Positions 44,566 to 61,835 of a stretch of 64,000 nucleotides of DNA are shown in pieces (position 1 is the stretch's first letter; each line of letters starts with the position of its first letter). The stretch covers positions 2,410,001-2,474,000 of the forward strand of contig CP053031.1 of the NCBI GenBank assembly GCA_021496505.1, given 5' to 3'. This stretch comes from Thermoleophilia bacterium SCSIO 60948 (lineage in GTDB: Bacteria; Actinomycetota; Thermoleophilia; Solirubrobacterales; 70-9). The position numbers and the translations under genes were made by a program. Under the pieces are notes generated by a model that was not told the origin of the DNA, did not search any database, and saw only the letters and a program-made list of their open reading frames with translations.

Positions 44566-47500
44566 GCTCGCCGGAGACCAACATCACCGACCGATTTGAC
44601 GTCGTCGGCCCCCTGCCCGAGGGGGTGACGCTGCTCGAGGCGAGCGCTGGGACCGGAAAGACGTACGCGATCGCGGCACTCGCGGCGCGCTACGTCGCCG
44701 ATGGCGTGCCGATCGAGAAGCTCCTCCTGGTCACCTTTGGGCGAATGGCGACGGGCGAGCTGCGCGAGCGCGTCCGCGACCGCCTCGTCTCCGTCGAAGC
44801 GGCGCTCGCTGGCCACCTCGCGGGCGCACCCGAACCGCCCACCGACGAGATCGCGACGCTGCTGACCGACGGTGATGAGGACACCGTCCAGAGGCGCCGA
44901 GATCGGCTGGCCGACGCGATCTCGAACTTCGACGCGGCGACGATCGCCACCATTCACGCCTTCTGCCAAGAAATGCTCGCAGGCCTCGGGGCTGACTCGG
45001 AAGTCGAAGACGAGACCGAGTTCACCGAGGACATGGCGGAGATGGTCGAGGAGGTGATCGACGACCTCTACGTACGGCGCTTCGCCGGCGAGGAGGAACC
45101 GCGGATGAAGCGGGCGCAGGCCGCCGAGATCGCAAGGATCGCGATCGGGAACCCGGACACCGTCCTCGCCGAGCCCGACGACGCCGACCCCGACGGCTTG
45201 CCGTCGATGCGCCGCCGGCTCGCCAAGGCCGCGCGGACGGAGCTCGACCGTCGAAAGCGGATCGCAGGGCTGATGACCTACGACGACCTGCTCGGCCGCC
45301 TCCACGCCGCCCTGGAGGGTGAAGCTGGAGACGCGGTCGCGCAGCGGCTGGCCCAGCGCTACTCGGTCGTCCTCGTCGATGAGTTCCAGGACACCGACCC
45401 GATCCAGTGGGGAATCTTTCGTCGCGCCTTCGGTGAGACCGGCACCACCCTCGTACTAATCGGCGATCCGAAGCAGGCGATCTACGCGTTCCGTGGCGCC
45501 GACGTCTACGCCTACCTCGAGGCCGCGCGTCACTCGGCTCGTCGCGCGACGCTTCGCACCAACTGGCGGAGCGACCAGGGTCTACTCGACGCCTACGACG
45601 CCCTGTTTCGCAGCGCCCGCCTCGGCCACGACGAGATCGTCTATCGCGATGTCCGCGCGGCCCCGCCGAATCAGGAGAGCGGGCTTATTGGTGCGCCCGA
45701 CGCGACCCCGCTTCGGGTCCGGCTCGTCTCACGCGACGACCCCGATCTCGTTCGCACGCAGTCGGGACTGATCCAGACCGAGGCAGCTCGCGAGCACATA
45801 GCCGCCGATCTCGCCGGCGAAGTCGTGGACCTTCTGAGCTCCGGCGCGGAGGTCGTGACGAAGCGAGCTGACGACGGAACCCCGACGAAGACCGAGGGCG
45901 TCAGGCCGGGCCACCTCGCCGTACTCGTCCCGACCAACCGCATCGCGGGCCAGGTCCGAGAGGCGCTCGACGATGTCGGCGTCAAGGCCGTGATCAACGG
46001 CTCCGGGAGCGTCTTTGGCACCGAACCCGCGCAGGAGTGGCTGCGTTTGTTGAAGGCGATCGAGCGACCCTCTTCAGGTTCGCGTGCGCACGGCGCAGCG
46101 CTGACCTCGTTTCTGGGCTGGTCGGTCGAGGAGGTAGCAGAGGCCGAGGACGCCGACTGGGGCGCCGTCCATCGTCGCCTCCATGCGTGGGGGCGGATCC
46201 TTCGCGACAAGGGAGTCGCCTCGCTGCTCGAGGCGATGACGATCGGCGAGTCGATCCCGGAGCGGATCCTCGCCGACACCGACGGCGAGCGCCGGTTCAC
46301 CGACCTACGTCACATCGGTCAGCTCCTGCACGAGGCCGCGTCCGCCGAGCGCCTCGGCGTGACCGGACTCGTCGCGTGGCTGCACGCGCGTATCGAGGAG
46401 GCGCCGCGGGAAGCGGACGAAGAGCGAAGCCGCAGGCTCGAGTCCGACGAGGAGGCGGTCCAGGTGCTGACGATCCACCGCAGCAAGGGCCTCGAGTTCC
46501 CCGTCGTCTACGCGCCATTCCTCTGGCACACCAGCCGCGTTCCGAAGACCAACGAGCCGATCGCGTTCCACGACCCGGCCGCCGGCGACGAGCGGCGACT
46601 CGACGTCTGCCTCGCCGGCGCTAGCTTCAAGGAGCATCACCGTCAAGCGGTCGTCGAGGATCGAGGCGAGCACCTGCGGCTGGCCTACGTCGCGCTGACG
46701 CGGGCCCGCCACCAGGCGGTCATCTGGTGGGTGGCAGCCCACAACACCCAGCACTCACCACTCGAACGCCTCCTGTTCGCGCGCGACGCCAACGGCCGGA
46801 TCGAGCCGGACGGCCCGAAGACGCCGAGCGACGCGGAGGTCCGATACGCCTTCGACGCGATCGCCGAGGCCGCGCCCGGCCGGATCGCCGTGGAAGAGTC
46901 GGACCCACTCGCGGGGTCCTGGAGCGCCGAGCGAGAGACGCCGGGCGCACTCGAAGCCGCAACTTTCGACCGTGACCTGGACCCGATCTGGCGTCGGACC
47001 TCCTACAGCGACATCGCCTCTGGCGCGTATGAGCTCAGGGTCGCGTCCGAGCCGGAGGTGCCCGCGCTCGACGACGAGCCCGTGGGCACCGACGGCGCGC
47101 CGGCCGGCGAGGCCGCGCCGACCGACCCCGCCCTCGCCACCCGCTCGCTCATGGCCGGTCTTCCGACCGGCGTCAGGTTCGGCACCTTCGTCCATGAGAC
47201 GTTCGAGCGCATCGACTTCGCCGCCCCAGACCTCCGAGCCGAAGTCGAGACGCGAGTCGCCGAGCGGCTTGAGCGATCCGAGTTGGAGGTCGGTGACCCA
47301 GCCGCCCTGACGAGCGCACTCGAAGCGGTCATCACGACACCCCTCGGCCCGGAGCTGGGCGACCGCGCTCTGCGCGATTTCGGCAGAGCCGACCGTCTCG
47401 ACGAGTTGCATTTCGAGCTCCCCCTCGCGGGCGGCGACGACCCGACGGGCAAGCTCCAAATCACGGCGATCGCCGACGTTCTTCGCGAGCACCTGCCGAC

Positions 47501-47969
47501 CGACGATCCGCTCGCGAGCTACGCCGAAGCGCTCGACGAACCCGGCCTCCGGCGCGCTGTCCGCGGCTACCTGACCGGCAGCCTCGACCTCGTGCTCCGA
47601 ACGCAAGACGATGGCGAGCGACCTCGCTTCGCCATCTTCGACTACAAGACCAACTGGCTCGCGGCGCCGGGCGAGGAGCTCGCGGCGTGGCACCACCGCC
47701 CCAACGCGCTCCGCCGCGAGATGAGCCGCGGCCAGTACGGGCTCCAGGCGATCCTTTACCTGGCGACGCTCCACCGCTACCTCCGCTGGCGACTGTCCGA
47801 CTACGACCCTGAGACCGACCTTGCGGGCGTCTATTACTTGTTCGTCCGCGGGATGTCGGGTCCCGAGACCCCGATGATCGGCGACCACCGTTGCGGCGTG
47901 TTTGGCTGGCGCCCGCCAGGTACTGCAGTCGAGGCGCTTAGCGATGTCATGGACGGAGTCGCGGCATGA
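44562..47969 (+). CDS. recB: RecBCD enzyme, beta subunit (helicase-nuclease)
   Basis: 1135 aa from TTG 44562 (overlaps recC). Helicase: EASAGTGKTYAIAALAARY (Walker A), VLVDEFQDTDPIQW (Walker B), VLTIHRSKGLEFPVVYAPFLW and LRLAYVALTRARH. C-terminal nuclease: GTFVHETFERIDF and FAIFDYKTNWL (D-x-K of the RecB nuclease), then GQYGLQAILYLATLHRYL (Q-x3-Y). Both activities look intact. RecB moves 3' to 5'. The length is normal; a longer open frame upstream is shadow of recC. Confidence 0.95.
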   Translation: MSSPETNITDRFDVVGPLPEGVTLLEASAGTGKTYAIAALAARYVADGVPIEKLLLVTFGRMATGELRERVRDRLVSVEAALAGHLAGAPEPPTDEIATLLTDGDEDTVQRRRDRLADAISNFDAATIATIHAFCQEMLAGLGADSEVEDETEFTEDMAEMVEEVIDDLYVRRFAGEEEPRMKRAQAAEIARIAIGNPDTVLAEPDDADPDGLPSMRRRLAKAARTELDRRKRIAGLMTYDDLLGRLHAALEGEAGDAVAQRLAQRYSVVLVDEFQDTDPIQWGIFRRAFGETGTTLVLIGDPKQAIYAFRGADVYAYLEAARHSARRATLRTNWRSDQGLLDAYDALFRSARLGHDEIVYRDVRAAPPNQESGLIGAPDATPLRVRLVSRDDPDLVRTQSGLIQTEAAREHIAADLAGEVVDLLSSGAEVVTKRADDGTPTKTEGVRPGHLAVLVPTNRIAGQVREALDDVGVKAVINGSGSVFGTEPAQEWLRLLKAIERPSSGSRAHGAALTSFLGWSVEEVAEAEDADWGAVHRRLHAWGRILRDKGVASLLEAMTIGESIPERILADTDGERRFTDLRHIGQLLHEAASAERLGVTGLVAWLHARIEEAPREADEERSRRLESDEEAVQVLTIHRSKGLEFPVVYAPFLWHTSRVPKTNEPIAFHDPAAGDERRLDVCLAGASFKEHHRQAVVEDRGEHLRLAYVALTRARHQAVIWWVAAHNTQHSPLERLLFARDANGRIEPDGPKTPSDAEVRYAFDAIAEAAPGRIAVEESDPLAGSWSAERETPGALEAATFDRDLDPIWRRTSYSDIASGAYELRVASEPEVPALDDEPVGTDGAPAGEAAPTDPALATRSLMAGLPTGVRFGTFVHETFERIDFAAPDLRAEVETRVAERLERSELEVGDPAALTSALEAVITTPLGPELGDRALRDFGRADRLDELHFELPLAGGDDPTGKLQITAIADVLREHLPTDDPLASYAEALDEPGLRRAVRGYLTGSLDLVLRTQDDGERPRFAIFDYKTNWLAAPGEELAAWHHRPNALRREMSRGQYGLQAILYLATLHRYLRWRLSDYDPETDLAGVYYLFVRGMSGPETPMIGDHRCGVFGWRPPGTAVEALSDVMDGVAA

Positions 47970-49915
47970 CCGACACCTCGGACGAGGCGCTCGCACCCGA
48001 TGCCGAAATCACCCCAATCGATCGATTCGACGGGCGCCGCGCCGCAAGCGCGCCCGGCCTGCTGGCCGAGTTCAGCGCTGCGGGCGTCATCTCGGCGGCC
48101 GATGTCCATGCAGCCCAGCGCCTCGCGGTGTTCTGCTCCGAGGAGGATGAGAGAGCGATCCTCGCGGCAGCCTTGGCGGTTCGAGCGCCGCGCGTCGCGC
48201 AGGTGTTCATCGACCTGGCCTCGATCCGCGAGACGATTGTCGTGGAGCAGGCGGAGGACGATTCGCTCGAAGCCCTCCCATGGCCTGAGCCGACGGCCTG
48301 GGTCCAGGCGACACGCGCATCGTCGATGGTCGCCGTCGACGAAGAGCAAGCACGCTTGCCTTTGCGCCTCGAGGGGACCCATCTCTACCTAGATCGCTAC
48401 TGGCGCGAGGAGTGCCAGGTGGCCAAAGACCTTCTCGCACTGGGTCGCGAAGCAAACGTCGATGCCTCCGCAATCACAGAGGATCTCCATCGCCTCTTTC
48501 CTGGCGAGACGACGGGCCGCCAAGCGATGGCCGCCGCGACGGCCTACCTGCGCCACCTCACCGTCATCGCGGGCGGTCCCGGGACCGGCAAGACCACAAC
48601 AGTCGCCCGAATCCTTGCCCTGCTCCTGGGCCGAACCGAGCAAGACGGCGAACGCACCCCGATGGTCGGTCTAGCAGCGCCAACCGGCAAGGCAGCTGCA
48701 CGGCTGACAGAAGCGATCCACGAGGAAGCCGAACGCCTCGACGTCACCGATTCAGTCCGAGCTCACCTTGTCGACCTCGAAGCGATGACGCTCCACCGCC
48801 TTTTTGGCTGGAAGGCGGGTAGCCACAGCCGTTTCCGCCACGACCGAACCCAGCGCCTTCCCCACGACATCGTGATCGTCGACGAGGCGTCTATGGTCTC
48901 CCTGCCGCAGATGGCTCGCCTTATGGAGGCGGTGCGACCTGACGCACGACTCGTGCTGGTCGGTGACCCAGACCAGCTCGCGTCGGTCGAAGCGGGCGCG
49001 GTACTAGGCGACATCGTTGGCAGCGCCACGCCAGAAGGGCTAGTCATCGGAGAGCGCGCGAGCCGGCGGCTCCCTGAGACGGTCGGCAAGGACCCTCCGC
49101 CTAGTTCTGATCACAACAACCCGGTCGCCGACGGCGTCGTGGTGCTAAAGGAGAGCCACCGCTTCGGCTCCGCGATTGGCGACTTTGCCGAGGCTATCCG
49201 CCGAGGGGATCCCGATCATGTCGTGGACCTTCTCGCTCAGCCCTCCGAGGAGATCGCTTGGACCGACGTCGATTGTCAAGCTGGCGCGGACGGAGACTTG
49301 GGTCCGATCCGCGACGCCATCATGCCCTCGAGCCGGCGAATGGTTGAGTCGGCGCTCGCCGGGGATGCCGCGGCTGCATTAGATGCGTTGACTGAAGCCA
49401 AGCTTCTCTGCGCACATCGTGAGGGTCCGTACGGTGCCGCCGCCTGGGGCCGGCGGCTTGAGTCATGGGTCGCGGAGGTGGTCCCGGGCTTCACGCCGCG
49501 CGGGGACCGCTACATCGGTCGCCCTCTCCTGATTACTAACAACGACTACGAGCTTGGGCTATTCAACGGCGACCTAGGGATCATCGTCGCCGGGGCCGAC
49601 GGACCTCTCGCGTGTTTTGTCAAGTCAGGCTCCGGCGGCGAAGCTGTGGCGTTGCTGCCCGAGCGCCTTGGCCGCCACGAGACTGTCTACGCGATGACCA
49701 TCCACAAAGCGCAGGGCTCGCAGTTTGAATCCGTAGCCGTAATAGTCCCGCCGGCGACCTCTCCGTCAACGTCACGTCAGCTGCTCTACACCAGCGTTAC
49801 GCGTGCACGCTCCGCGGTCAGTGTGGTAGGAACCGCGGATGCAATTCGGTCAGCGGTGATGCGTCCGATCGATCGTGCTTCGGGACTGGGGCCGCGACTC
49901 CGGCGAAGCTTCTAG
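47966..49915 (+). CDS. recD: RecBCD enzyme, alpha subunit (5'-3' helicase)
   Basis: 649 aa from ATG 47966 (ATGA overlap with recB). VIAGGPGTGKTTTVARILALLLG (Walker A), DIVIVDEASMVSLPQMARLM (Walker B), LVGDPDQLASVEAGAVLGDI, LKESHRFGSAIGDFAEAI, AMTIHKAQGSQFESVAV and LLYTSVTRARSAVSVVG cover the motifs of a complete RecD. The second half shows more A/T and more varied third codon positions than recC and recB, so the base-composition change begins here, before the defence operon. Confidence 0.94.
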   Translation: MTDTSDEALAPDAEITPIDRFDGRRAASAPGLLAEFSAAGVISAADVHAAQRLAVFCSEEDERAILAAALAVRAPRVAQVFIDLASIRETIVVEQAEDDSLEALPWPEPTAWVQATRASSMVAVDEEQARLPLRLEGTHLYLDRYWREECQVAKDLLALGREANVDASAITEDLHRLFPGETTGRQAMAAATAYLRHLTVIAGGPGTGKTTTVARILALLLGRTEQDGERTPMVGLAAPTGKAAARLTEAIHEEAERLDVTDSVRAHLVDLEAMTLHRLFGWKAGSHSRFRHDRTQRLPHDIVIVDEASMVSLPQMARLMEAVRPDARLVLVGDPDQLASVEAGAVLGDIVGSATPEGLVIGERASRRLPETVGKDPPPSSDHNNPVADGVVVLKESHRFGSAIGDFAEAIRRGDPDHVVDLLAQPSEEIAWTDVDCQAGADGDLGPIRDAIMPSSRRMVESALAGDAAAALDALTEAKLLCAHREGPYGAAAWGRRLESWVAEVVPGFTPRGDRYIGRPLLITNNDYELGLFNGDLGIIVAGADGPLACFVKSGSGGEAVALLPERLGRHETVYAMTIHKAQGSQFESVAVIVPPATSPSTSRQLLYTSVTRARSAVSVVGTADAIRSAVMRPIDRASGLGPRLRRSF

Positions 49916-50088: not shown

Positions 50089-51960
50089 TCAGAGATCATC
50101 CAAAGCAACGTCTGCGAGCAATCGCGGAAGCGACGTCTTGTCGGTTAGAACCTCCCTAACCGCGCGTTGCCAGCCATCGCGGCCGACGAGCTCGACGTGC
50201 GCGGCCGCATTCCGCAGCGCTGACAGTCTCGTCATCTTCTTTCCGATCGCTTGAAGCTGGCTGATCGAGAGACCGTTGGCGTCAGCCCACTGACGGGACA
50301 AAGTTGACACCTCGTCACTTGGGTTCTTTATTCGGCGAAGTACACGAGCAATATGCCCGAATGTCCGGGGGGCCGGCATAACCTCCGGGTGATCCTGCGC
50401 AAACGGCGCGGTGATCTCTGAGTCGGCAAGACGTTCGCATGCGGCAAGGAGGGCGAGCACTGGTCCCGACCAATCGACCGCTGATTCGTCGAACGATTCG
50501 CCCAGTGCCCAGCCGGTTACCAACATGGCTTGCGACGGCAGATCGAATCGCACCCAGATATCTCCGAGGATTTCGGATAGACGCTCTTCAGCTTGCGCTC
50601 TGTGCGCCGTATCGAGCAGCTTTGCCGCTTCCACCTGCAAGAGGTCGAGTCGCACCGCGGCACGAGCGGATACCTGGGTCTCAGTCGCGTTGCTCGCGCC
50701 GCCGCCCTGACCGACACCAGGCTTCCATGTCAACCACTGGCCGATCGCCGAGCACAGATGCGAATCAAAGGCCGAATCCTCGCCGGAGAAGATGACCACG
50801 ACGACCTTGCCTTTGTCCGGGCCGTCGTACGCGCGACTCTCGGTCGATGGTCCGGGGAACGCCAGGATCGCGTGGAACCCACCCCCAGATGCCGTGGTAG
50901 CGAAGTTTTCTGCGTATCCCAGCATCTTGTATACCTCCTCCGACCGGCGCGCGTCGGGCGCCCATCGAAACTTGGCGTCAACAAGAAGTGGCGGACGGCC
51001 TTCTCTCGTCAACACCAGGTCCGGGATCCCGCGCAAGGCCTGTTTCGACTCGCGCGCTGTCCACCTTCCTATGCCAATCGGCTGCTGCCTTTGAAACCAC
51101 ACACTAATCTTTTCGCCGACGGATTCATGCACCAGGACAGGGGATCCGGGCGGAACGGCGTGAAGCGGAACGGGATCTTCCCCAGGTTCGAATCCTGCCA
51201 TCGTCAGAGCATCACTTGCTCTTCCAAGAAGCCACACCTCGAACAAGCTGTGCCAGAATGCCTCTGAGCCAGGAAGGGCCATAAGGCGCTTACGGACCTC
51301 CGGTTCGTGCCCGACGCTTAGTGGATCGACTAGCTCTTGCGCGATCGCGCAAACCTTGGCGTACAGAACGTCATTGCCGGTCTGGCGGCGCCGTACCCTT
51401 GTTTGAGCTTCTTTCGTGAGTCGCTGAAGCCCTGACCTTGCCTGCACGGCCCCCCACGAGGGTTGGCGCGCCGCTGTGAATGTCCAGGCCCTGAGTCGTC
51501 GGACAAGCAAGGCTTCGCCGCTAGGAAGCGTGAAAGGAGAGGATCTAAGGCGCTTCGCGAGCTGCACGAGGACGAGTCTCAGCAGTGCGTTCTCCGGTGT
51601 ATCGGGCTGGTCACGAAGGACTAAGACCGGATAGCGGCGCTGTGTATCGCGGTTGCCCAGGATGCGTGTTTGCACGTAGCGAGGTACGTCGAGCCGTCCG
51701 CGGATTGCGCCGATCGATTCGGTGCGATGGCTGACGAAGACATGCGAAGCTCTCCGCTCAAGCTGCTGTACTACGGGTTGAAGTGCCAGAGCGCACGCCA
51801 TAGCGTGCCGAACCACCGCCTCCACGCCTGGCTCGTCGAAATCACCATGAGCGCGCACCTCCCTGGCGACGAGTTCTGTTCTCTGGGCGGATTGACGGGT
51901 GATAAGGCGTGGGAGTGCCTCCCGCAACACGCTCTCACGAACTTCAGTCTCAGATGCCAT
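50089..51960 (-). CDS. DUF2357/McrC-like PD-(D/E)XK nuclease subunit
   Basis: 623 aa from ATG 51960, inside an 11-nt overlap with the AAA gene. ALRGIPDLVLTREGRPPLLVDAKFRW is a PD-(D/E)XK core (PD, then D-x-K) around residues 320-345. The N-terminal 200 residues (RGRLDVPRYVQTRILGN, TPENALLRLVLVQL) match the DUF2357/McrC plan: a DNA-binding domain, then the nuclease. The C-terminal 150 residues (IGQWLTWK on) are an added helical domain. Paired with the McrB-like ATPase it should form a type-IV-like restriction complex. Confidence 0.82.
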   Translation of the reverse strand: MASETEVRESVLREALPRLITRQSAQRTELVAREVRAHGDFDEPGVEAVVRHAMACALALQPVVQQLERRASHVFVSHRTESIGAIRGRLDVPRYVQTRILGNRDTQRRYPVLVLRDQPDTPENALLRLVLVQLAKRLRSSPFTLPSGEALLVRRLRAWTFTAARQPSWGAVQARSGLQRLTKEAQTRVRRRQTGNDVLYAKVCAIAQELVDPLSVGHEPEVRKRLMALPGSEAFWHSLFEVWLLGRASDALTMAGFEPGEDPVPLHAVPPGSPVLVHESVGEKISVWFQRQQPIGIGRWTARESKQALRGIPDLVLTREGRPPLLVDAKFRWAPDARRSEEVYKMLGYAENFATTASGGGFHAILAFPGPSTESRAYDGPDKGKVVVVIFSGEDSAFDSHLCSAIGQWLTWKPGVGQGGGASNATETQVSARAAVRLDLLQVEAAKLLDTAHRAQAEERLSEILGDIWVRFDLPSQAMLVTGWALGESFDESAVDWSGPVLALLAACERLADSEITAPFAQDHPEVMPAPRTFGHIARVLRRIKNPSDEVSTLSRQWADANGLSISQLQAIGKKMTRLSALRNAAAHVELVGRDGWQRAVREVLTDKTSLPRLLADVALDDL

Positions 51961-53158
51961 GGAGGCCGACTGCGGCGGTTCGCCGCAGAGCCCGCGCGAA
52001 CGCTCCGTCGAACGGCGGCGTGAGGGCATCCGCGAACGCTTCAAGCTGGTCGGGCTCGAGCACGTCAGCTTCTAATAGGGGAGCGACCCGCAAGGCGGCG
52101 CTTGAGTCCAGCGCAAAGTCGAGCTCTTCGTCCGTTCTATCGTTTACAACGGCGTCGATTAAGAAGGTCTCGATGAGATCTATCATTGTTGCCGTACCCA
52201 CTGGTAGGTAAGGAGCCGACTTGGTGGTTTCGCCGCCCGAACGAAGGCGATGCACGATCTGAAATAGCTCTATCAGGCTCCCTTCGGTGGCGTGCAAGAC
52301 CTCATCGAGTTCATCCTCATGCCCACTCAGACGGCTTTTTGCCAGGCCGAGAGCCTTCTTAAGAACCAGGGTGAACTCTTGAATCGCTAGAGGCGAACTC
52401 GAGTCCGCCGTTCGGCTCCACTCGGCGTCTGCCGGCGGAGGTCCGGGGACGTCGAGCGTCACGAAGCTGAAGCGGCGGCGCAATGCCTGACTCAAATTGT
52501 GTACGAACTGGCGGTCTACGCTGTTGATGGTCGCGATAATGCGGAATCGTCGCGGAACTACTAGCTCGATCCCCGGTCGGTAGGTAAGGCCGACGCCAAC
52601 CAAATCATCAGATCCGAGCGCTGTAAACAGCTCACCAAACGCCCTGTCGAAGTGAGATCGGTTCAGCTCATCTACGACGAGCCACACTGCTTGTTCGGTA
52701 GCGTCATCGTCGGCATCCTCGCGCTTTATCATCTGGCCTGCGCACTCGAGGATTGCTCTCGTCACGTGACCATCGACCGGCACGACGACTTCATTTCCAT
52801 TTTCATCAGCTCGAAGTTCCTGCCGACCGATGACGTCGTACGTCGTCCAATCTTCATGAGCTGTTGAGATCGCTAGCTTGGCTTGAAAGGCACCAGCCAA
52901 CCGTTTGGCGAGCTCGGTCTTTCCAGTTCCCGGCGGGCCCTGCAGGACAACGTGACCGGCCACGAGTGCGCTGACTGCCTGCTCAACAACACGCGGATCT
53001 AGAACGAGATCCTCCGTAGCGTCCATCGCCAGTTGCGACAGATCGTTCGGAAGGATCAGTTCATCGGCCGCGATTTCTGCGACCCGACTTGGGTCTGAAG
53101 AGAAGTCGCTCGGGGGCACCCCTCCAGCTTGCGCCATATCCGTCGACTCAGTCGCCAT
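51950..53158 (-). CDS. McrB/MoxR-like AAA+ ATPase
   Basis: 402 aa from ATG 53158 (overlap of 11 nt with the upstream gene). Walker A GPPGTGKTEL (74-83), Walker B VWLVVDELNRS, and ATINSVDRQFVHNLSQALRRRF, which resembles the MN-x-x-DRS and arginine-finger region of McrB. McrB uses GTP; the variant here leaves ATP or GTP open. The N-terminal 60 residues are acidic and not a known modified-base reader, unlike classic McrB. Motor for the DUF2357 nuclease. Confidence 0.84.
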   Translation of the reverse strand: MATESTDMAQAGGVPPSDFSSDPSRVAEIAADELILPNDLSQLAMDATEDLVLDPRVVEQAVSALVAGHVVLQGPPGTGKTELAKRLAGAFQAKLAISTAHEDWTTYDVIGRQELRADENGNEVVVPVDGHVTRAILECAGQMIKREDADDDATEQAVWLVVDELNRSHFDRAFGELFTALGSDDLVGVGLTYRPGIELVVPRRFRIIATINSVDRQFVHNLSQALRRRFSFVTLDVPGPPPADAEWSRTADSSSPLAIQEFTLVLKKALGLAKSRLSGHEDELDEVLHATEGSLIELFQIVHRLRSGGETTKSAPYLPVGTATMIDLIETFLIDAVVNDRTDEELDFALDSSAALRVAPLLEADVLEPDQLEAFADALTPPFDGAFARALRRTAAVGLHGI

Positions 53159-54284
53159 ACCGCTCCTTAAACTCTGCACGCACGATGTCAGGTCTACGAA
53201 TTAGTCGTGCGGGCCGTATCTTCAACTCGACGCCTCCTGCCTTCAAGACTTTGTCTTGGACCAAGAAGGTGTGAGTCTCCACGCTGCGGAGGATTACGCG
53301 CTCGCCCTTGGCTACGCGGCACAGCAGTGTCGTCGGACCTTCCACCGCGCCTTCGGAAACGTTCATGTCGTACTCGTCAATTAACCAGGCGTCGTCAGGC
53401 CCTAGGGAAACCTTGACAGGCCCGCTCGCCCCGGACAGGGGCTGATCCTCGACGGCCGCTCCCAGGATCGCAAAGCGCTCCTCTAAATCCGTGCCCGAGA
53501 ACGCAACTGGAAGACGCTCTGCGAACGGGGTCTCTAGCGAGCACGCACCGCCCGAGCCCATAGCGAGCTCGATACTTTCTCGGGGCCAGTTCGGCCGGAC
53601 GCTCTCCCGCCGCGCTTTCCCGCCTTGGTTGACGTAATGATCGTCTCTCGACCTCTCAACGAGTAGATTCCCCAGTCCGACGTGCAGCATCGCCATATTG
53701 AGGCGGTTGTAGAGATCCCCCTTATGATGTCCACCCGGCCCCGGGACCTTCTCCAGCGGCAAATCGCCTGACCTCATGGCTCGTATCTGGTCTAGCGCGC
53801 CCGGAAGAGCTTCTCGGGATTCGACTACGCACAGAACTCTCCCGAGCTCTTCCCAGTGGATCATCCCATCCAAATCCAGCAATGAGGCCATGAGCGCCCA
53901 GTAGACCGGCAAGTCTGATTCGCGGTGGGCGCTTCTTCTCCAGGTGCCCCGGGGGCCTCCTAGAGGACAACGGAGGAGGAGGTTGAGACCGATCCAAGCG
54001 ACGCGCCTCTCGTCCTGTGCGTTGACCGCCTCGATGTACTGGGACCCCCCCGGTGTCACCTCAATTCGCTCGTCTGGCCGAACCCAGAGCAGCCCGAAAG
54101 ACTCAAGAGCTGCCTTTAGCGTCTCGACCATCGTCGACTTCGAGTTGTCCTTCGGCGTCATCGACGCCTTCGCATCGGCGTACTTCTCAAATTGAACGAA
54201 CGTCTCAAGCCGATTCCAGGTGCGTTCTCCATCGGCTAGCGGATTGGGGTAGCTGATGCTCTGAATGCCCCAAGGTGTCGCCAC
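53148..54284 (-). CDS. Defence-operon protein, unrecognised
   Basis: 378 aa. The N-terminal half looks like a winged-helix arrangement (RTWNRLETFVQFEKYADAK, VETLKAALESFGLLWVRPDERIEVTPGGSQYIEAV), followed by helical and beta segments (DLYNRLNMAMLHVGLGNLLVER, DDAWLIDEYDMN). It may be the DNA or damage sensor of the system. It lies 9 bp from the upstream methyltransferase stop and overlaps the AAA gene by 11 nt. Confidence 0.65.
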   Translation of the reverse strand: MATPWGIQSISYPNPLADGERTWNRLETFVQFEKYADAKASMTPKDNSKSTMVETLKAALESFGLLWVRPDERIEVTPGGSQYIEAVNAQDERRVAWIGLNLLLRCPLGGPRGTWRRSAHRESDLPVYWALMASLLDLDGMIHWEELGRVLCVVESREALPGALDQIRAMRSGDLPLEKVPGPGGHHKGDLYNRLNMAMLHVGLGNLLVERSRDDHYVNQGGKARRESVRPNWPRESIELAMGSGGACSLETPFAERLPVAFSGTDLEERFAILGAAVEDQPLSGASGPVKVSLGPDDAWLIDEYDMNVSEGAVEGPTTLLCRVAKGERVILRSVETHTFLVQDKVLKAGGVELKIRPARLIRRPDIVRAEFKERYGD

Positions 54285-54293
54285 GATGCAACC

Positions 54294-55643
54294 CTAATTG
54301 GCGACGGCGTCAGGCGGAAGCGTCCAGCCCAGAAGCGGTAGGCGGTCGGGCGACGGGGTCGCATCCATCACACGTCGAAATACGAGCACCCAATCGACCA
54401 GGATGATCCCTCCACGACCCTTGCGCGGGAACTTCATGTAATGTCGCCGAACCCGGTAGCCGAATGCGTGCTCCAACGACAGACCGCGACTCGCTGCCAT
54501 TCGCGTCAAGCAGTCGTGAAGAGGAACCTCTCCATTCCGTGAGCCGCTGTTGCCGACCACCATCACGTAAATACCGTGTCGCTTCAGACAACGCGCAGCC
54601 TCGGCGAGGTGTGTATCTAGGTCCTGGAGGTAAGATACGGTACTCCGCCAGCGGTCGTGCGGGACATGTTCAGCACTGAGTAACCCCGCAACGGACTTCG
54701 GCACGTGAAGTGTCTCGCTCAGCGGGTTCTTGGCTCCCGTCGCTTGCCGACGAAGAAGGTTGAAATCATCCCGACTCTCCGCACCTACCAACGGGCCGAG
54801 CCAGAAGTATTCCGCCATCAGGTTGTACTGGTAGTCGACCGAATCTAGATACGGTGGACTCGTTATCATCAGGTCCACCGAACTACTCTCGATAGGTAGT
54901 TCTCGCGCATCAGCGTGCAGCACTCGCGGCATCTCTGCGCGCGAATTTCGCATATTCTCGAGGCTCGCGAGTCCGGCTATGGCTCGGTCGACCGACTTAC
55001 CAACAATTGCTCGGACCGCGGGCGGATCTTTAGGATTCGTGTGTGACACGTAGGTCTTCATGGATTGGTCATCTGCGTTCGAGACCCTTCGCAGAACCGA
55101 GCTGACTGCCACGTGGAGGAATGCTCTTGTCCGGGCGTTCATCTCGACCGCCTCGATCGCTCTGAACAGCCCGTCGAGTTCGGAGCGGGCGCCCTCCGAG
55201 AACCAGTGTCCGGGGTTATCCACCCCACTCATGGGGACATTGGCGGGGACAGGCACGTGCGGCCATCTGGCGATCACGCGGCTCCAGGCAAGTCGAACAT
55301 CTTCGAGATTTGGAACGTCGGCCTTCGCTCGTGCGATCGCGCAAGCCAGAGGATCGAGGTCGATACCGATCGCTCGCACCGGATATCGAAGGGCCTCTAC
55401 TAAGGTGGTGCCCGATCCCACAAAGGGATCGACGACTAGTGCACCCGGGTGGGAGAACTCGCGAAGCGCCCACCGCGGGATCTGCGGAACGAACTTCGCC
55501 GGGAACCGGTGGAGACCATGCGTGCCGTGTGTCGTTGGCGTGGACAGGCTCATGGCGAGGACCTCGCCAAACGCGATTTCGTCAAGCGAAGGAAGCTCCG
55601 TCACCTCGCGATGAGTGGGCAACGACTTAACTGCAGTCGTCAT
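54294..55643 (-). CDS. DNA methyltransferase 1 (amino-methyltransferase, TSPPY type)
   Basis: 449 aa. VVDPFVGSGTTLVEALRYPVRAIGIDLDP is the S-adenosylmethionine site (motif I, 71-80, then the acidic strand), and MITSPPYLDSVDY is the catalytic motif IV (261-265). S/T-x-P-P-Y methyltransferases modify N6-adenine or N4-cytosine. An early FPAKFVPQIPRW segment is motif X-like. No separate recognition domain is obvious; the 100-200 region is the candidate. 4-nt overlap with the second methyltransferase. Confidence 0.87.
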   Translation of the reverse strand: MTTAVKSLPTHREVTELPSLDEIAFGEVLAMSLSTPTTHGTHGLHRFPAKFVPQIPRWALREFSHPGALVVDPFVGSGTTLVEALRYPVRAIGIDLDPLACAIARAKADVPNLEDVRLAWSRVIARWPHVPVPANVPMSGVDNPGHWFSEGARSELDGLFRAIEAVEMNARTRAFLHVAVSSVLRRVSNADDQSMKTYVSHTNPKDPPAVRAIVGKSVDRAIAGLASLENMRNSRAEMPRVLHADARELPIESSSVDLMITSPPYLDSVDYQYNLMAEYFWLGPLVGAESRDDFNLLRRQATGAKNPLSETLHVPKSVAGLLSAEHVPHDRWRSTVSYLQDLDTHLAEAARCLKRHGIYVMVVGNSGSRNGEVPLHDCLTRMAASRGLSLEHAFGYRVRRHYMKFPRKGRGGIILVDWVLVFRRVMDATPSPDRLPLLGWTLPPDAVAN

Positions 55644-56998
55644 GAAAACGTGACAATGCTCTCACGCATCTGACTTGCCAGCGAGCCTAGCTTGGCGCGC
55701 TGCTGAGGAGCAACGGTGAGGTGTCTCACCCGGTCGATACGGACTCGCTCGAACCCAGCCGCGAGCCCCATGCGGGCTAGGAGGACATCGGTCGGAATAA
55801 TCACGCCAGCGTAGGCTGAGTTACCTACAACTACGTGACATTTACCCCCGGCCGCGAGGACAGCCTGGCTGGCTCCAAGGACCACGTCCATGTCGTCGAA
55901 ATAGCCGCGGAGCAGGTTGCGGACCCCCATTCGCACGCTACTGGATTCGGGCTCCATAAGCTCCAGTAGTCGCTCCAAGTCGGGGCGTGTCGTTGTAGGC
56001 GCGGTCAGCTCGGCCCCAAGGTGAGACCGTAAGGACCGCTTCCGCAAGGCCCTGGCCTCGTCGTACGAGCTGACGAAACCGCCGAACCAAAGCTCGACTT
56101 TCATGGATTCGAAGTAGTCGAAGCGATTGGCATACGGAGGGCTGAAGATGACGGAGCCGAAGTCGCGGTGTGGGGCTAACTCGAGGAGGTCCAGCGCAGA
56201 CCCCTCGCGAATTACCTGCCGCTCCCAGGATCCATGTCGCCAATGAGGCGCGTCTTGGATGATCTCGTCGAGCGCGAGCCGAAAAGCTCTCCGCACATAA
56301 GAAGCCTGATCATCCCCGAATCGCTCGCGCTGCCACACTCCGTCAGGACGAAGGACGTATCCAGCCGATGTCCGCTTTCGGTTCCTGTACTTCAGACCGT
56401 TGCCTTCTTTGAAAAACGAGCCGCAGGGCTCCAAAACCGATATCCACGCGAGCAGCACAGCATCACGCTGCTGTTCGCTCAAAGCGCTTGACTCAATAAG
56501 CCCTCGGATTCGCATTAGCTCATCGAGGATGCGGGGCTCGAATGCTCGGCTGGCAATGCTCAGACCCGGGACCGGCCAGCGTTCCGAGGTTCTCGCATCT
56601 ACACCTGCGGAGAACTCACGCAGCCGTCCTATGTCGTCCCCGCAAAGGGGCCGCAGCTTCACTCGCGCCACGAACGTCGCGAGCGGGTTGAGGTCGATCC
56701 CGACCGCATCCGCACCTCGTTCGGCCGCGCCGACGACGATCGACCCGCAACCGCAAAAGGGATCGATGAAGGGAGGCTCCAGCTCAAGCGCTTCGATCAG
56801 ACCCGGTGAAAACGCTTCGCGGTAGCGAAACCAGCGGTGGATGGGCTTCACGGAAGCGCCGCCCCAATTTACGAGCGGAGCAAGGTCCGTCCGATCGCCC
56901 ATCGGGATCTCCGATTCGAGGAGACGGATCATGCGCCCCTGTTCTTTGAGGGGGGAGGCGCGAGGTGCACGCCGGAACGAGATCGCTGTTGCCGCCAT
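55640..56998 (-). CDS. DNA methyltransferase 2 (amino-methyltransferase, SPPY type)
   Basis: 452 aa. FIDPFCGCGSIVVGAAERGADAVGIDLNP holds motif I (79-86) and VIFSPPYANRFDYFESMKVELW motif IV (285-288). WGGASVKPIHRWFRYREAFSPGLI replaces the usual entry. It shares the overall order of motifs with methyltransferase 1 but differs in most positions, so the two probably recognise different sequences or strands. Its ATG 56998 follows a 340-bp gap, while its stop overlaps the next gene. Confidence 0.86.
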   Translation of the reverse strand: MAATAISFRRAPRASPLKEQGRMIRLLESEIPMGDRTDLAPLVNWGGASVKPIHRWFRYREAFSPGLIEALELEPPFIDPFCGCGSIVVGAAERGADAVGIDLNPLATFVARVKLRPLCGDDIGRLREFSAGVDARTSERWPVPGLSIASRAFEPRILDELMRIRGLIESSALSEQQRDAVLLAWISVLEPCGSFFKEGNGLKYRNRKRTSAGYVLRPDGVWQRERFGDDQASYVRRAFRLALDEIIQDAPHWRHGSWERQVIREGSALDLLELAPHRDFGSVIFSPPYANRFDYFESMKVELWFGGFVSSYDEARALRKRSLRSHLGAELTAPTTTRPDLERLLELMEPESSSVRMGVRNLLRGYFDDMDVVLGASQAVLAAGGKCHVVVGNSAYAGVIIPTDVLLARMGLAAGFERVRIDRVRHLTVAPQQRAKLGSLASQMRESIVTFS

Positions 56999-57121
56999 TC
57001 GTCAACCCTATTGACCGCAGATGACGCAAAGTTTGAGGGCCGCGGTAGACGAGCCGCCAATGGGCACGCCAACCCTCCTTACGAGTCTGCGCCAGTGCTC
57101 AGCGGCCCTCATACCCAAGAT

Positions 57122-57338
57122 CTAAGAACCGGAGGGCCTTGTCGCCGACCTGCAGACGAAGGGGTCCTCAGAGGGCACGACCTTGACCGGGGTCAACCGG
57201 CCGGGGCCGACGGCCGGGAAATCCGCCGGCTGAGCAAACCATGGCGCGTGCCCCGGCGTCCTTATATTGAATCCGGTATTTCCTCCGCTTGAAAACTCGA
57301 ACACATATTTGCGTTTAGCGAACTCGCGCGCGGCTCTC
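57122..57338 (-). other. Gap between defence genes with a possible S2C-like remnant
   Basis: The 340-bp interval 56999-57338 holds no intact gene. A minus-strand frame ending at 57122 reads TPVKVVPSEDPFVCRSATRPSGS, close to the end of S2C copy 14 (FVCRSATS after a V-x-x-P stretch), and before that REFAKRKYVFEFSSGG. The first conserved Cys and a signal peptide are missing, so this is at most a broken copy or a frameshifted tail of the upstream gene. Confidence 0.2.
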
Positions 57339-60300
57339 CTAAACGCCCGCCCTGCGTCGAAGGTCTCCAATGCCCGATAGGTGAACGCGCCCGGATATCT
57401 TGCGATCGAGACGGCGCAGTGGGTCCGAAACGAGGACGTAATCGGGACGACGCGGCACCTCCAGGCCCCAGACGATCGCCAGTAGATATCGCCCCTTCTT
57501 TTTTTCGGCAAGCTCGAACTCACTTGGTTCGAACCTCACTGCCTCCGGCATATCCTTTCCGTGCGCTTTGATCTCCACCCACACGTCCTTGCTGCGATCG
57601 ACAGCATCCGCTCCGGCGTTCTTGTGGTGACGAATGTCTTCAAGCTCCACTCCCCTACGATCGGCGAGAACGGTGGAGATCAAATCGAGTGCGAGGTTCT
57701 CCCTGTCCTCGTCGGTGTACTCACGGTTTCCTGCCCGGGCGGGTCGCGAGGGACTGCTTCCTCTCCTCTGCTTCTTCGGAAGTACGAGCTTCGATCTGCT
57801 TGACAATCGGATTGTTGCGCCTCTTCGATTTCCCTCCAAAAGCAAACCACCGATTTCGCTGAGGTCCAGTTCGTCGATCGTGTGGAGCCTGCGAGGCTTC
57901 TCTTTGATCGGGGCCTGGTGCCGCGGCACACTTTTCCGCCTCGCGCTGCCCCTTCTTCGCGTTCTTCGCTCGAAGTTGTCAAAGCCAAGGAAGTCGGGAG
58001 CATCTTGAGGCGCTTCCGAGGGATCCAAATCGAACTCTGGCCCGGAGTCATCCCGAAACGCTTCGGCCCAAACGAGCGCGAGTGTTGAGAGCTCCGCCTC
58101 GCTCGCATCCGGTCCGCCAACGCGTGCCGCGATTGCTTGCGCAGCACCCTCGCGGCGCCCGAGCTGATCGTCGTCGGCCAAGCACAGCACGTTGGGATCA
58201 TCGAACAGATAGGCGTCAACTGAAACGCGCTCCACTCGCCGGTGTGGGGCTCGAACCCGTAGCGCCCAATCTGGGCTGATGATCAGGGCAGCGTCTGCCA
58301 GCGAGCGCCATGTCTCGGCCGTCACTGCGCCATAAAGGTCGACATGGTGGATCTGCAGGTAGTGGCGAAATCGCGAAAGCGCGTCGAGAAACTCCGCTCT
58401 TCGATCGAGCTCGGCACTGAGTAGCCGCTGGGGGATATCAGCCTCCACGTTCTCTGGGCCCAGCAACACGATGCCGAGTTTCGGCAGCAGGGGATCCAAC
58501 CGCGCGAGAGGCATCGGGGGAGCCCAGACGGGCCACTTCTCCCCAAGCTGCTTAGCCAGGGCGGAGTCCGCGGTAGCGAATACGTCGTCCCGCCGACGCG
58601 TTTGATGCCAGCCTGAGTGGAGCCGCAAAGGAGTTCTCGCGAGCGCTCCTAGGCCTCGTCGAGACTCGGACGCCAGGTCGAGCAGCCGCTCGAACACGCG
58701 GAACTCGGCGGTGCGATCGACGGACTCCTCTTGCGCCAATGCTTGTAGGACGCCAACACACTCGGCCGCCGAGGGCTTGGGTACTCCGATGGCTTCAAGA
58801 AGCCCCGGAGCAGCGCTCGTACATGGCAGGCTCGTGTGGAGCTGGGGACCGCGCCTTACATTCGTTGGGGACAGCCAACTGTCCGCGACCAGTATCAGCC
58901 CGCCCTCTCTGCCCGGGTCGGCTAGCGCACGCCGGATCTGCTCGTCGGACATGTCGCTTTCCGATTCGTACCTGCCCCCGGTTACGAAATCTGAGAGCGC
59001 CGCCAGATATCTGTCGGCCTCCTGCTGTTCTACGAGGCGACCCGCCCGGTTGGCGTCCTTGAGTCCACCTAATTGCGCAAGCACATCCGATGCGCGGGGC
59101 CGACCCCTGATGCCAAGCGCCGCGACAAAGGATAGGTCGGCATGCTCCGGTTCAAGCTCGCCGGAATATCGAGCCCGATTCTCGCCCTCGACGCCGAATG
59201 CCGCCTCAGTAAGAACGGCCAAGTCCCGAGGGCAAGCAGCGTTCAATCCTCGCTCGCGGGTGGTGAACCATGGATAGCTCGCCAACCGCGCGAGCCAAGT
59301 CGCGGTTACCGTGCCCTGCTCGTGGAACGAACCGTAATGCCAGACTGCAGTCGCCTCAGTCCTGTCCGCGTATTGACCCCATCGCTCGTTAATCGCAAGC
59401 ACGAAGGCACGCGCTCTGGCTTGTCGCTGCGCGAGCTTGCGCTCCGAGGCGATGTTGACGGCGATCGCGTAGGCGTCCGGGCTCTCCCAATCGTGTTGCA
59501 GTCCGGTGGCGCGGGGGAACGCCTGCAGCTCCTCTTGGTGCTGAGCGCAGAGCCCGTCCTGTTCGGTGAGTTTGGGCGCGTGAGGATTCTTCGTGGGCTG
59601 TGCGGCTGGCACGAGACGAGGAGCCGTTGCTGCGCCAAGCTCTCTGAGAAAGGCCAGGGCGCCTCGTCCACGTGGACCCGCCAGCAACTCCCGGTAGCTC
59701 GGGTCCACCCACCTTAGATCCTTGGTCTTGCCGGCCGCTCGTGGGAACGGACTGCTATCGATCGCGCTAGGAAGGTAGGCATCGACCGGCTTGACACTCA
59801 CTGGTTGCTTGCGAGAGTTCATGTTGACGTAGCCTTCGATCGCAATATTCCGCCCTACGCCGTGCCCTAGGCTTGTCCGTTCCTCTTGAGACAACTGATC
59901 AAAAGAGTTCTTCAAGCGCTTTAGTACATCTGGACGGCTACGGAGATCGTGCGGTCGTGCCCCCGATGCGCTTGCCAGCGCGCGAATCGTGGCTTCATCG
60001 CTCGCTCTCTGGTGCAGGGCACCGACTTCGGAGAGCCATTGCCGCACCTCCTGCGCCGCTCGACCGGTCGATCTGAGCTGAGGCGCGATCTGTTGTGCAA
60101 GTCCTAAGGACGCTGCGAGTCCGGAATCGGAAACAGTGTGAACAAGCAAAGCTCCTTTCTCGATGACGTCTTCGGGACTTAACCGGCCCCGGCCGTCGGC
60201 CAGCGGAACGCACCTAAGCTGGGTGAGCTGTTCTCCGGCACGGAGGGTCAGGCACGCCGCGACGAAATCGACGAGCCATCCGCCGCCCCTTGAACCGATC

Positions 60301-61835
60301 TCCTCGTCAGACCAGTCGAAGACCCCACGAGCCTCTGTGAAATCCAGCGGCTCGGCACGACAGGCCGGATCGCTGAGGACATCTCGCCAACGGCCGCCAT
60401 CGCGCGCGCTCTTCGGGACGGTTCGAGCGTCGTCGTGGTAAGCCTCGAGCCAAAGTCGCTCAACATCGGCAACCTGAAGAACGCTCTCGAGCTCATCCAC
60501 CTCGTAGACGAGGTCGTCGAGAGGCACCTCCCCACCCGCGAGCCTAAGGGAGCCCCGTTTTGCCAACTCGCGCCACTGCCGCTCGATCATTCGATCAAAC
60601 TGGCTCCGGAGCCATTCCGACCCGCCGCACTCTTCGGTAGATAGCGCGATCGCGCGCCACGCGATCTTAGGACGACTCGAGAGCCGCTCAACCGCGACTG
60701 CGACAGCTAGCTCTCCTATTGCGTCGACCAGCCAGCTATTCCGCTTGTGAGCGAGTAGATCGGTTCGGTCTGTGCTCAGCTTGAAGTGCTTCGAGCCAAC
60801 CGAGAACGGCAAGGAGCTGGGCTCCTCGAGGGGCAGGCCGACGTAGACCCGACTAGGTAACGCTCGTCCCGGAACAGCAAGGCGTACGTCCAAAGTCTCG
60901 CCAAGCCGATCCCCCGCGTCAGCAAGAGCCTGCGGCCGTCGAAACCTCGCGACGTACCTCGTCCAGCGCCGGTTGCTCCCGGGTTCAGTTACGGTTGCTT
61001 CCCGGATATCAAGCGCCCGTGCCACGGTCAAAGACGAAGGCCTATCGGGACCCCTCCGTAGCCGGCAGGACCTGATCAGCTTCTTACGTCGTCCAAGCTC
61101 CGTAAGTGAGACTGATGAGACGTGATCGAGGAAGAGCAGCGACGATGCGTCCCACTTGGCGATCCAGTCCTCGAAGAAGCCAAGGTCGAACTCCTTTTCC
61201 TTTAGCGTCAACACGAAAAGGGTTTCGCGTGCGTCAGCGTCCCAGAAGCCTGCAATCGGACGCGCCGGCGAAGCAGGCTTAATCCGTCCATCTTCGATCG
61301 AGAAACTAGGTAGCGGGCGACAGTGCACCTGTAGCTCACGCCCAAGTTGCTTGAGCGTCTTTAGGCCGACCCCAAACTGGCCAATCTTCTCGGCGTCATG
61401 CCTGGAGCCTGAAATTAGGGGAAGCGACATCTTTAGAACGTCGCGAAGCTCGACGGGTCGCCCATCATGAGCGACGAGTAGTTCGCCCGAACCGCTTCGA
61501 CCTTTCCGAAACCCGAAGCGAACGGTGGATGCCTGCTGATCCTCGGCGTTCTGCACGACCTCCTGAAGACCTCGCGTAGCGACGCTGTGTATCGACTCGG
61601 CGAGGCGCTCGGCACCGGCAACCATCTCGTCAAAGAGATGGAACTTCCCCATCTCCGCTAGGAGCTTGATCGCCTCTTGCTCATCGCTCGGGGACAGGCC
61701 GAGGCTCTCGTAGTCCCGTCCTTCGTACATAGCCTTCACTGCTCTAGCGGCGGGCGAGTCGTCTCCACCGACGACGGCTATTTCGAGACGTCTCTTCTCG
61801 TCGTGCAGTGCGGTCTTGGGCAGGGCGTCAGTCAT
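57339..61835 (-). CDS. Giant GHKL-ATPase (sacsin-like) protein with C-terminal DUF3883
   Basis: 1498 aa. The N-terminal GHKL fold: LQEVVQNAEDQQA (N-box E92/N96), VAHDGRPV (D124-G) and IGQFGVGLKTLK (152-159), the Hsp90/sacsin-type ATP pocket with HATPase glycine loop. The middle 1000 residues are helical, unrecognised. The C-terminus has LALDLISTVLADRRGVELEDI, DVWVEIKAHG and RYLLAIVWGL, the DUF3883 (NOV) region with an E-x-K step that may be a degenerate nuclease fold. First gene of the operon. Similar giants occur beside restriction-like genes and may sense invading DNA or proteins. Confidence 0.84.
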   Translation of the reverse strand: MTDALPKTALHDEKRRLEIAVVGGDDSPAARAVKAMYEGRDYESLGLSPSDEQEAIKLLAEMGKFHLFDEMVAGAERLAESIHSVATRGLQEVVQNAEDQQASTVRFGFRKGRSGSGELLVAHDGRPVELRDVLKMSLPLISGSRHDAEKIGQFGVGLKTLKQLGRELQVHCRPLPSFSIEDGRIKPASPARPIAGFWDADARETLFVLTLKEKEFDLGFFEDWIAKWDASSLLFLDHVSSVSLTELGRRKKLIRSCRLRRGPDRPSSLTVARALDIREATVTEPGSNRRWTRYVARFRRPQALADAGDRLGETLDVRLAVPGRALPSRVYVGLPLEEPSSLPFSVGSKHFKLSTDRTDLLAHKRNSWLVDAIGELAVAVAVERLSSRPKIAWRAIALSTEECGGSEWLRSQFDRMIERQWRELAKRGSLRLAGGEVPLDDLVYEVDELESVLQVADVERLWLEAYHDDARTVPKSARDGGRWRDVLSDPACRAEPLDFTEARGVFDWSDEEIGSRGGGWLVDFVAACLTLRAGEQLTQLRCVPLADGRGRLSPEDVIEKGALLVHTVSDSGLAASLGLAQQIAPQLRSTGRAAQEVRQWLSEVGALHQRASDEATIRALASASGARPHDLRSRPDVLKRLKNSFDQLSQEERTSLGHGVGRNIAIEGYVNMNSRKQPVSVKPVDAYLPSAIDSSPFPRAAGKTKDLRWVDPSYRELLAGPRGRGALAFLRELGAATAPRLVPAAQPTKNPHAPKLTEQDGLCAQHQEELQAFPRATGLQHDWESPDAYAIAVNIASERKLAQRQARARAFVLAINERWGQYADRTEATAVWHYGSFHEQGTVTATWLARLASYPWFTTRERGLNAACPRDLAVLTEAAFGVEGENRARYSGELEPEHADLSFVAALGIRGRPRASDVLAQLGGLKDANRAGRLVEQQEADRYLAALSDFVTGGRYESESDMSDEQIRRALADPGREGGLILVADSWLSPTNVRRGPQLHTSLPCTSAAPGLLEAIGVPKPSAAECVGVLQALAQEESVDRTAEFRVFERLLDLASESRRGLGALARTPLRLHSGWHQTRRRDDVFATADSALAKQLGEKWPVWAPPMPLARLDPLLPKLGIVLLGPENVEADIPQRLLSAELDRRAEFLDALSRFRHYLQIHHVDLYGAVTAETWRSLADAALIISPDWALRVRAPHRRVERVSVDAYLFDDPNVLCLADDDQLGRREGAAQAIAARVGGPDASEAELSTLALVWAEAFRDDSGPEFDLDPSEAPQDAPDFLGFDNFERRTRRRGSARRKSVPRHQAPIKEKPRRLHTIDELDLSEIGGLLLEGNRRGATIRLSSRSKLVLPKKQRRGSSPSRPARAGNREYTDEDRENLALDLISTVLADRRGVELEDIRHHKNAGADAVDRSKDVWVEIKAHGKDMPEAVRFEPSEFELAEKKKGRYLLAIVWGLEVPRRPDYVLVSDPLRRLDRKISGRVHLSGIGDLRRRAGV

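Follow-up and report, generated by a model that had tools for sequence, protein, structure and literature searches.

The closest described relatives of the locus analysed here combine DNA methyltransferases with a McrBC-type motor and nuclease. LlaJI, a plasmid-borne system of Lactococcus reported in 2006, comprises two methyltransferases, a McrB-like specificity subunit (R1), and a McrC-like subunit (R2) with a PD...D/ExK motif; it restricts unmethylated DNA, and phage resistance requires both R subunits (PMC1459862). The McrB-like subunits of LlaI and BsuMI are short (337 and 343 residues), and these systems have three restriction open reading frames (ORFs) (PMC1459862). PcaI, in which a methyltransferase acts with AAA and DUF2357 proteins, was found by experiment to restrict unmethylated DNA (PMC8989522). 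A census of McrBC systems reported a prevalent association with methyltransferases and announced a separate study (PMC11090510). In the present study, we examined a window of 64,000 nucleotides (nt) of Thermoleophilia bacterium SCSIO 60948 (contig CP053031.1, positions 2,410,001 to 2,474,000). It contains a cassette of five genes, MT1, MT2, X, AAA, and NUC, which we read, with a probability of roughly 0.8, as a restriction-modification system of the McrBC-motor kind.

Relatives were gathered by tblastn in plasmids and by one scan each of genome contigs and viral contigs, followed by profile searches of the loci. The complete set MT1-MT2-X-AAA-NUC, with order and strand kept, is present in 13 other loci (L003, L006-L009, L014, L015, L019, L021, and L029-L032), found in an Actinomycetota plasmid (Cryobacterium), a gammaproteobacterium, Pseudomonadales, Poribacteria, an Acidobacteria metagenome-assembled genome, Granulicella, Halomonas, Amylibacter, Gemmatimonadaceae, and 4 viral contigs, 3 of which are near-identical and are counted among the 13. 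Such recurrence indicates that the arrangement is more than chance, and the methyltransferase pair accompanies every complete cassette. The viral contigs are prophage-like, with lysozyme- and tail-like ORFs adjoining, and the cassette, spread over a plasmid, these contigs, and several phyla, appears to be mobile. It is almost absent from same-family genomes and from 396 genomes of the phylum: a single further MT1-MT2 pair turned up, in G286, its MT1 containing a stop codon. In locus L013, no X, AAA, or NUC gene lies behind MT2.

Within the window, MT1 and MT2 overlap by 4 nt, MT2 and X are 9 nt apart, and both X/AAA and AAA/NUC overlap by 11 nt, spacings that rest on the most likely starts (ATG at 53158 for AAA and at 51960 for NUC). 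A sixth gene, for a homologue of the Tiamat protein TmtA, ends 340 nt upstream of MT1 and is thus set apart from a compact group of five. All six minus-strand ORFs are full length, with catalytic motifs intact in 6 out of 6. A first-pass annotation of the locus had described six same-strand genes, mostly overlapping by 4 to 11 nt, and had called for a search for operons with that gene order. The ORFs and their strand hold, but the conserved order is that of the five genes, not of six as a unit.

By family and motif, MT1 and MT2 are SPPY DNA amino-methyltransferases. MT1 matches PADLOC MTase_II (3.7e-57) and the DNA methyltransferase family PHROG 18146 (6.5e-45), carries motif I as DPFCGCG and motif IV as SPPY, and is 52% identical to MT1 of Cryobacterium; MT2 matches PF01555 (N6_N4_Mtase, 2.1e-14) and carries DPFVGSG and SPPY. 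Structures of N4C/N6A methyltransferases emerged as relatives. The two are distant paralogues (26% identity, E 2e-10), as expected for enzymes serving the two strands of an asymmetric site. Assignment to MADS was considered and rejected, since matches to the mad2/mad8 methyltransferase and ATPase were weak and generic. Relatives of MT1 also occur in other company. In L022, L023, and L024 (L023:4991-11323), they are paired with a second methyltransferase of about 620 residues, and in L023, from a Poseidoniaceae archaeon, a ResIII/DEAD helicase of 993 residues, possibly a further effector type for the MT1 family, adjoins the pair. A 916-residue protein of a Woesearchaeota genome (L018:9827-12577) holds an MT1-like methyltransferase within a much longer chain.

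The motor and the nuclease resemble McrB and McrC, respectively. A profile built from 13 AAA homologues retrieved Escherichia coli McrB first among PDB entries (2.3e-21), along with Thermococcus gammatolerans McrB (4.7e-18), and AAA matches Pfam AAA_5 (5.4e-20). The McrB signature NxxD is present as NSVD at residues 219-222 (numbering of the GTG-start ORF), with N and D invariant in the 13 homologues. Walker A lies near residue 74 of 402, and no N-terminal domain match, and thus no modified-base-binding domain of the McrB kind, was found in AAA. With the NUC model, Foldseek ranked McrC first, that of E. coli at 7.2e-7 and that of T. gammatolerans at 1.9e-6, and the active site PD...DAK (D314/D328/K330, ATG numbering) is invariant in 14 homologues. 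NUC continues into a helical C-terminal extension that is kept in the sister plasmid cassettes L004, L005, and L073, where its invariant Rx4H motif reads RIPAAH in place of RNAAAH. The other aligned NUC proteins of complete X-containing cassettes (410-453 residues) do not have it, and it gave no Pfam match and a low-confidence model. HEPN domains, with their Rx4-6H motif, are tightly associated with restriction-modification systems (PMC3710099), and the extension is a candidate HEPN-like RNase domain on the McrC-like subunit.

The member of the cassette that gave no match by sequence in Pfam, PADLOC, NCBIfam, PHROGs, or the PDB profile search is X, the family of which is nonetheless conserved across the cassettes. 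Its structural model resembles the recognition domains of the nickase Nt.BspD6I (Z 17.3 over 236 residues, 3.7 A) and of BpuJI (Z 15.1), as well as FokI (Z 8.0), with the first unrelated row at Z 6.8; Foldseek gave 2.5e-5. Type IIS enzymes of this group carry their own nuclease in the same chain, whereas X shows no nuclease profile in Pfam and ends in a small beta-rich domain rather than a cleavage domain. The best reading of the model and of the fusions described below is that X is a stand-alone site-recognition subunit, which would serve the McrBC-like motor.

Sister loci show what the X domain can be joined to. Behind the same MT1-MT2 pair, it is fused to HNH in L016 (4.7e-8), L017, and L026, to NOV_C in L011 (1.2e-17), and, in L025, to a McrB-like AAA (AAA_5) followed by a classic McrC (PF10117, 1.6e-30); the X region of L025 also matches PF09491 RE_AlwI (2.1e-5). 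Downstream of the HNH and NOV_C fusions, the available sequence, which for L017 extends over only about 1 kb, encodes neither AAA nor NUC. The fusions place X on the restriction side, in the position that McrB gives to a DNA-binding domain of its own. The C-terminal domain of X stands where the sister cassettes carry HNH, NOV_C, or AAA, and because it occupies this fusion point, we propose it as the adaptor to the motor. Two loci merit separate mention. L011:8539-9981 encodes an apparent single-chain restriction enzyme, with a type IIS-like recognition domain and a NOV_C nuclease, and L004:6007-13791, on a Pseudarthrobacter plasmid, holds a helix-turn-helix regulator, two methyltransferases, MTaX1 (PF20296, 1.3e-13) in place of X, AAA, and NUC.

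Collectively, the conserved gene order, the protein families, the fold of X, the McrC-like fold of NUC, the motifs, and the exchange of effectors on X form the computed support for the restriction-modification reading. In the mechanism we propose, MT1 and MT2 would mark self DNA by amino-methylation, at N4-cytosine or N6-adenine, probably with one methyl mark per strand of a short asymmetric site. X would read the same site through its winged-helix domain, binding when it is unmethylated, and would recruit or load a hexameric McrB-like AAA motor; NUC would then activate AAA, AAA would move the DNA, and NUC would cut it. Beyond the computed features, we infer the target site and its asymmetry, the binding by X of the site that the methyltransferases modify, the block by methylation, the use of nucleoside triphosphates, translocation, cleavage, and phage defence. 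Several points weigh against this reading. The AlphaFold model of NUC is of moderate quality (predicted local distance difference test, pLDDT, 59.5), and the sequence-profile match of NUC to McrC is weak (0.048). The likeness of X to type IIS recognition domains is one of fold only, at 11% identity. BsuMI, with two methyltransferases, recognises a palindrome, so the number of methyltransferases is no proof of an asymmetric site. Finally, that unmethylated rather than methylated DNA would be restricted is argued by analogy.

Part of this reading had been anticipated by the first-pass annotation. Its defence locus with two amino-methyltransferases agrees with the MTase_II and PF01555 matches and the SPPY motifs, its pairing of a McrB-like ATPase with a McrC/DUF2357-like nuclease agrees with the PDB profile and Foldseek results, and its suggestion that modification protects while an AAA-nuclease restricts gains support as a reading. 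X, which it had called a winged-helix-like orphan, is indeed a winged-helix protein by its model; the type IIS-like recognition fold had been missed. Coordinates of all features are collected in Table 1.

Table 1. Genes, domains, and conserved unit of the locus, in positions of the window (aa, amino acids).
Feature	Positions	Strand	Length	Remark
TmtA-family gene (GHKL gene)	57339..61835	-	1498 aa	
MT1	55640..56998	-	452 aa	Cassette gene 1
MT2	54294..55643	-	449 aa	Cassette gene 2
X	53148..54284	-	378 aa	Cassette gene 3
X residues 2-283	53436..54281	-		Predicted winged-helix domain with the type IIS recognition fold, as in BspD6I/BpuJI/FokI; AlphaFold model, pLDDT 78.8
X residues 285-378	53151..53432	-		Small beta-rich C-terminal domain; secondary structure of the model
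AAA	51950..53158	-	402 aa	McrB-like, on the basis of PDB profile, AAA_5, and motifs
NUC	50089..51960	-	623 aa	Cassette gene 5; McrC-like with PD-(D/E)XK nuclease (PD...DAK)
NUC C-terminal extension	50089..50727	-	about 210 aa	Helical, invariant Rx4H (RNAAAH)
Cassette MT1-MT2-X-AAA-NUC	50089-56998	-		Conserved five-gene unit

The sixth gene raises the question of whether the cassette is complete without it. Its product is a full-length homologue of TmtA (PADLOC PDLC03968, 912 bits, E 1.6e-274, residues 30-1491), with an N-terminal sacsin/GHKL ATPase region (NCBIfam sacsin domain, 2.6e-16) and a C-terminal PD-(D/E)XK-like nuclease region matching Pfam NOV_C (DUF3883) at 0.0022, below the cut-off. 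In a single six-gene system, as assumed by the first-pass annotation, the GHKL ATPase of TmtA would sense infection or the state of the DNA, and the protein would contribute a second effector, its NOV_C nuclease. The gene does lie on the same strand and adjoin the cassette, and this restriction-modification family does use NOV_C as an effector: the domain fused to X in L011 gives a match of 8.6e-19 to the C-terminal domain in TmtA models and is of the same kind as the end of TmtA. Nevertheless, TmtA occurs in none of the 13 other complete cassettes, 10 of which are covered for over 4 kb upstream, and the 340-nt gap separates it from MT1; a promoter and terminator scan and RNA folding of this gap gave nothing above shuffles. 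Nor do its closest homologues ever neighbour a cassette, lying instead beside OLD/TOPRIM and UvrD genes in L065, a Cas3-like gene in L063, and UvrD and PD-(D/E)XK genes in L072. TmtA-family matches are present in 41 of the 396 phylum genomes and the cassette methyltransferase in 2, indicating that the two vary independently, and a viral-contig scan with TmtA found nothing. The genomic contexts of both TmtA and the cassette thus speak for rejecting the six-gene unit, which we consider unlikely; by family match, the similarity to Tiamat covers only the neighbouring gene, which in all likelihood is a Tiamat-type defence gene independent of the cassette that was gathered into the same island. The contexts of the homologues are of note in themselves. 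In L065:4258-12487, the TmtA gene overlaps a UvrD helicase gene that in turn overlaps an OLD/TOPRIM ATPase gene, apparently a Gabija-like pair and Tiamat in one operon, and in L063:4785-12021, the TmtA homologue lies directly upstream of a gene for a Cas3-like helicase/HD nuclease.

A bolder extension of the restriction-modification reading would make the methyltransferase pair and the reader a plug-and-play platform for at least 4 effectors (HNH, NOV_C, fused McrB with McrC, and separate McrB-McrC), to which this locus would add TmtA as a GHKL-gated NOV_C nuclease and the NUC tail as a HEPN-like RNase, both firing if restriction is evaded; in this full form, we regard it as a long shot. Quite improbable, too, is a type IV activity, in which AAA and NUC would cut foreign methylated DNA and the methyltransferases would be a separate or regulatory module. 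The closest solved relatives, McrB and McrC, do cut methylated DNA, but AAA has the type IIS-like reader X in place of a methyl-binding N-terminal domain, and the MT pair is found with X whichever of the very different effectors is present, as in protective restriction-modification. Abortive infection, with DNA recognition by X-AAA-NUC mainly triggering the NUC tail to attack RNA and stop the cell, draws on the invariant RNAAAH/RIPAAH motif in four loci and on the ties of HEPN domains (Rx4-6H) to restriction-modification (PMC3710099), yet it is highly improbable, given that the tail is restricted to this subset of NUC proteins and HEPN finds no profile or confident-model support.

The restriction-modification cassette and the TmtA gene share a block with a G+C content of about 60%, compared with about 70% in the flanks, fitting a horizontally acquired island. 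Its neighbours were assigned by reading ORFs. To the left lies a convergent recCBD-like operon on the opposite strand (41143-49915), which may itself be accessory; in a sample of 40 genomes of the same family, the matches of its RecD were all weak (E 7e-20 or worse). To the right is a family-conserved thiamine-diphosphate enzyme (at 62367); in a check for an empty site, three relatives kept this enzyme but shared nothing to its left.

How does the cassette compare with known systems? The first-pass annotation had suggested a new logic in the joining of methyltransferases to McrBC-like restriction, which is already known from LlaJI (PMC1459862), PcaI (PMC8989522), and BsuMI/LlaI, and from the methyltransferase association in the census (PMC11090510). 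With type IV McrBC, the cassette shares the McrB-type AAA+ ATPase with NxxD and the McrC-like PD-(D/E)XK nuclease; McrBC, however, has no cognate methyltransferases, where the cassette has two, and its McrB bears an N-terminal modified-base-binding domain that the cassette AAA is without. LlaJI likewise unites two methyltransferases with McrB-like and McrC-like subunits in one operon, but its methyltransferases produce 5-methylcytosine, whereas those of the cassette belong to the amino-methyltransferases (SPPY, PF01555), and its specificity resides in the unique N-terminal half of R1, as opposed to a separate X, which is fused to the McrB-like subunit only in the sister locus L025. Compared by published description, BsuMI and LlaI are the closest in architecture, with a short McrB-like subunit devoid of its own specificity half and two more restriction ORFs, as in AAA, X, and NUC. 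The methyltransferases of BsuMI are of the other class, yielding 5-methylcytosine, in contrast to the amino-methyltransferases of the cassette. PcaI differs in having one Dcm-like methyltransferase and a DNA-binding domain fused to AAA. CoCoNuT systems were rejected as a match, their McrB motif being NxD (PMC11090510) as against NxxD in AAA. The phosphorothioate system SspB-SspC also pairs a FokI-like triple winged-helix reader with an AAA ATPase, of the ORC/CDC6 type (PMC10853773); SspB matches X at Z 6.1, but the cassette has methyltransferases and a McrB-type AAA.

These comparisons suggest that McrBC-type restriction can leave the reading of the sequence to a detachable, type IIS-like subunit, and that evolution exchanges the nucleases and motors that work with a single set of methyltransferases and reader. 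The cassette may represent a concrete route from a methyl-dependent (type IV) to a methyl-blocked (type II-like) motor nuclease, and its sister cassettes offer natural chimeras for studying the hand-over of DNA from a reader to an AAA+ motor. As far as checked, in a comparison made outside REBASE, what sets the cassette apart from the known systems is the use of amino-methyltransferases, of a type IIS-like reader that stands alone, and of effectors that can be exchanged.

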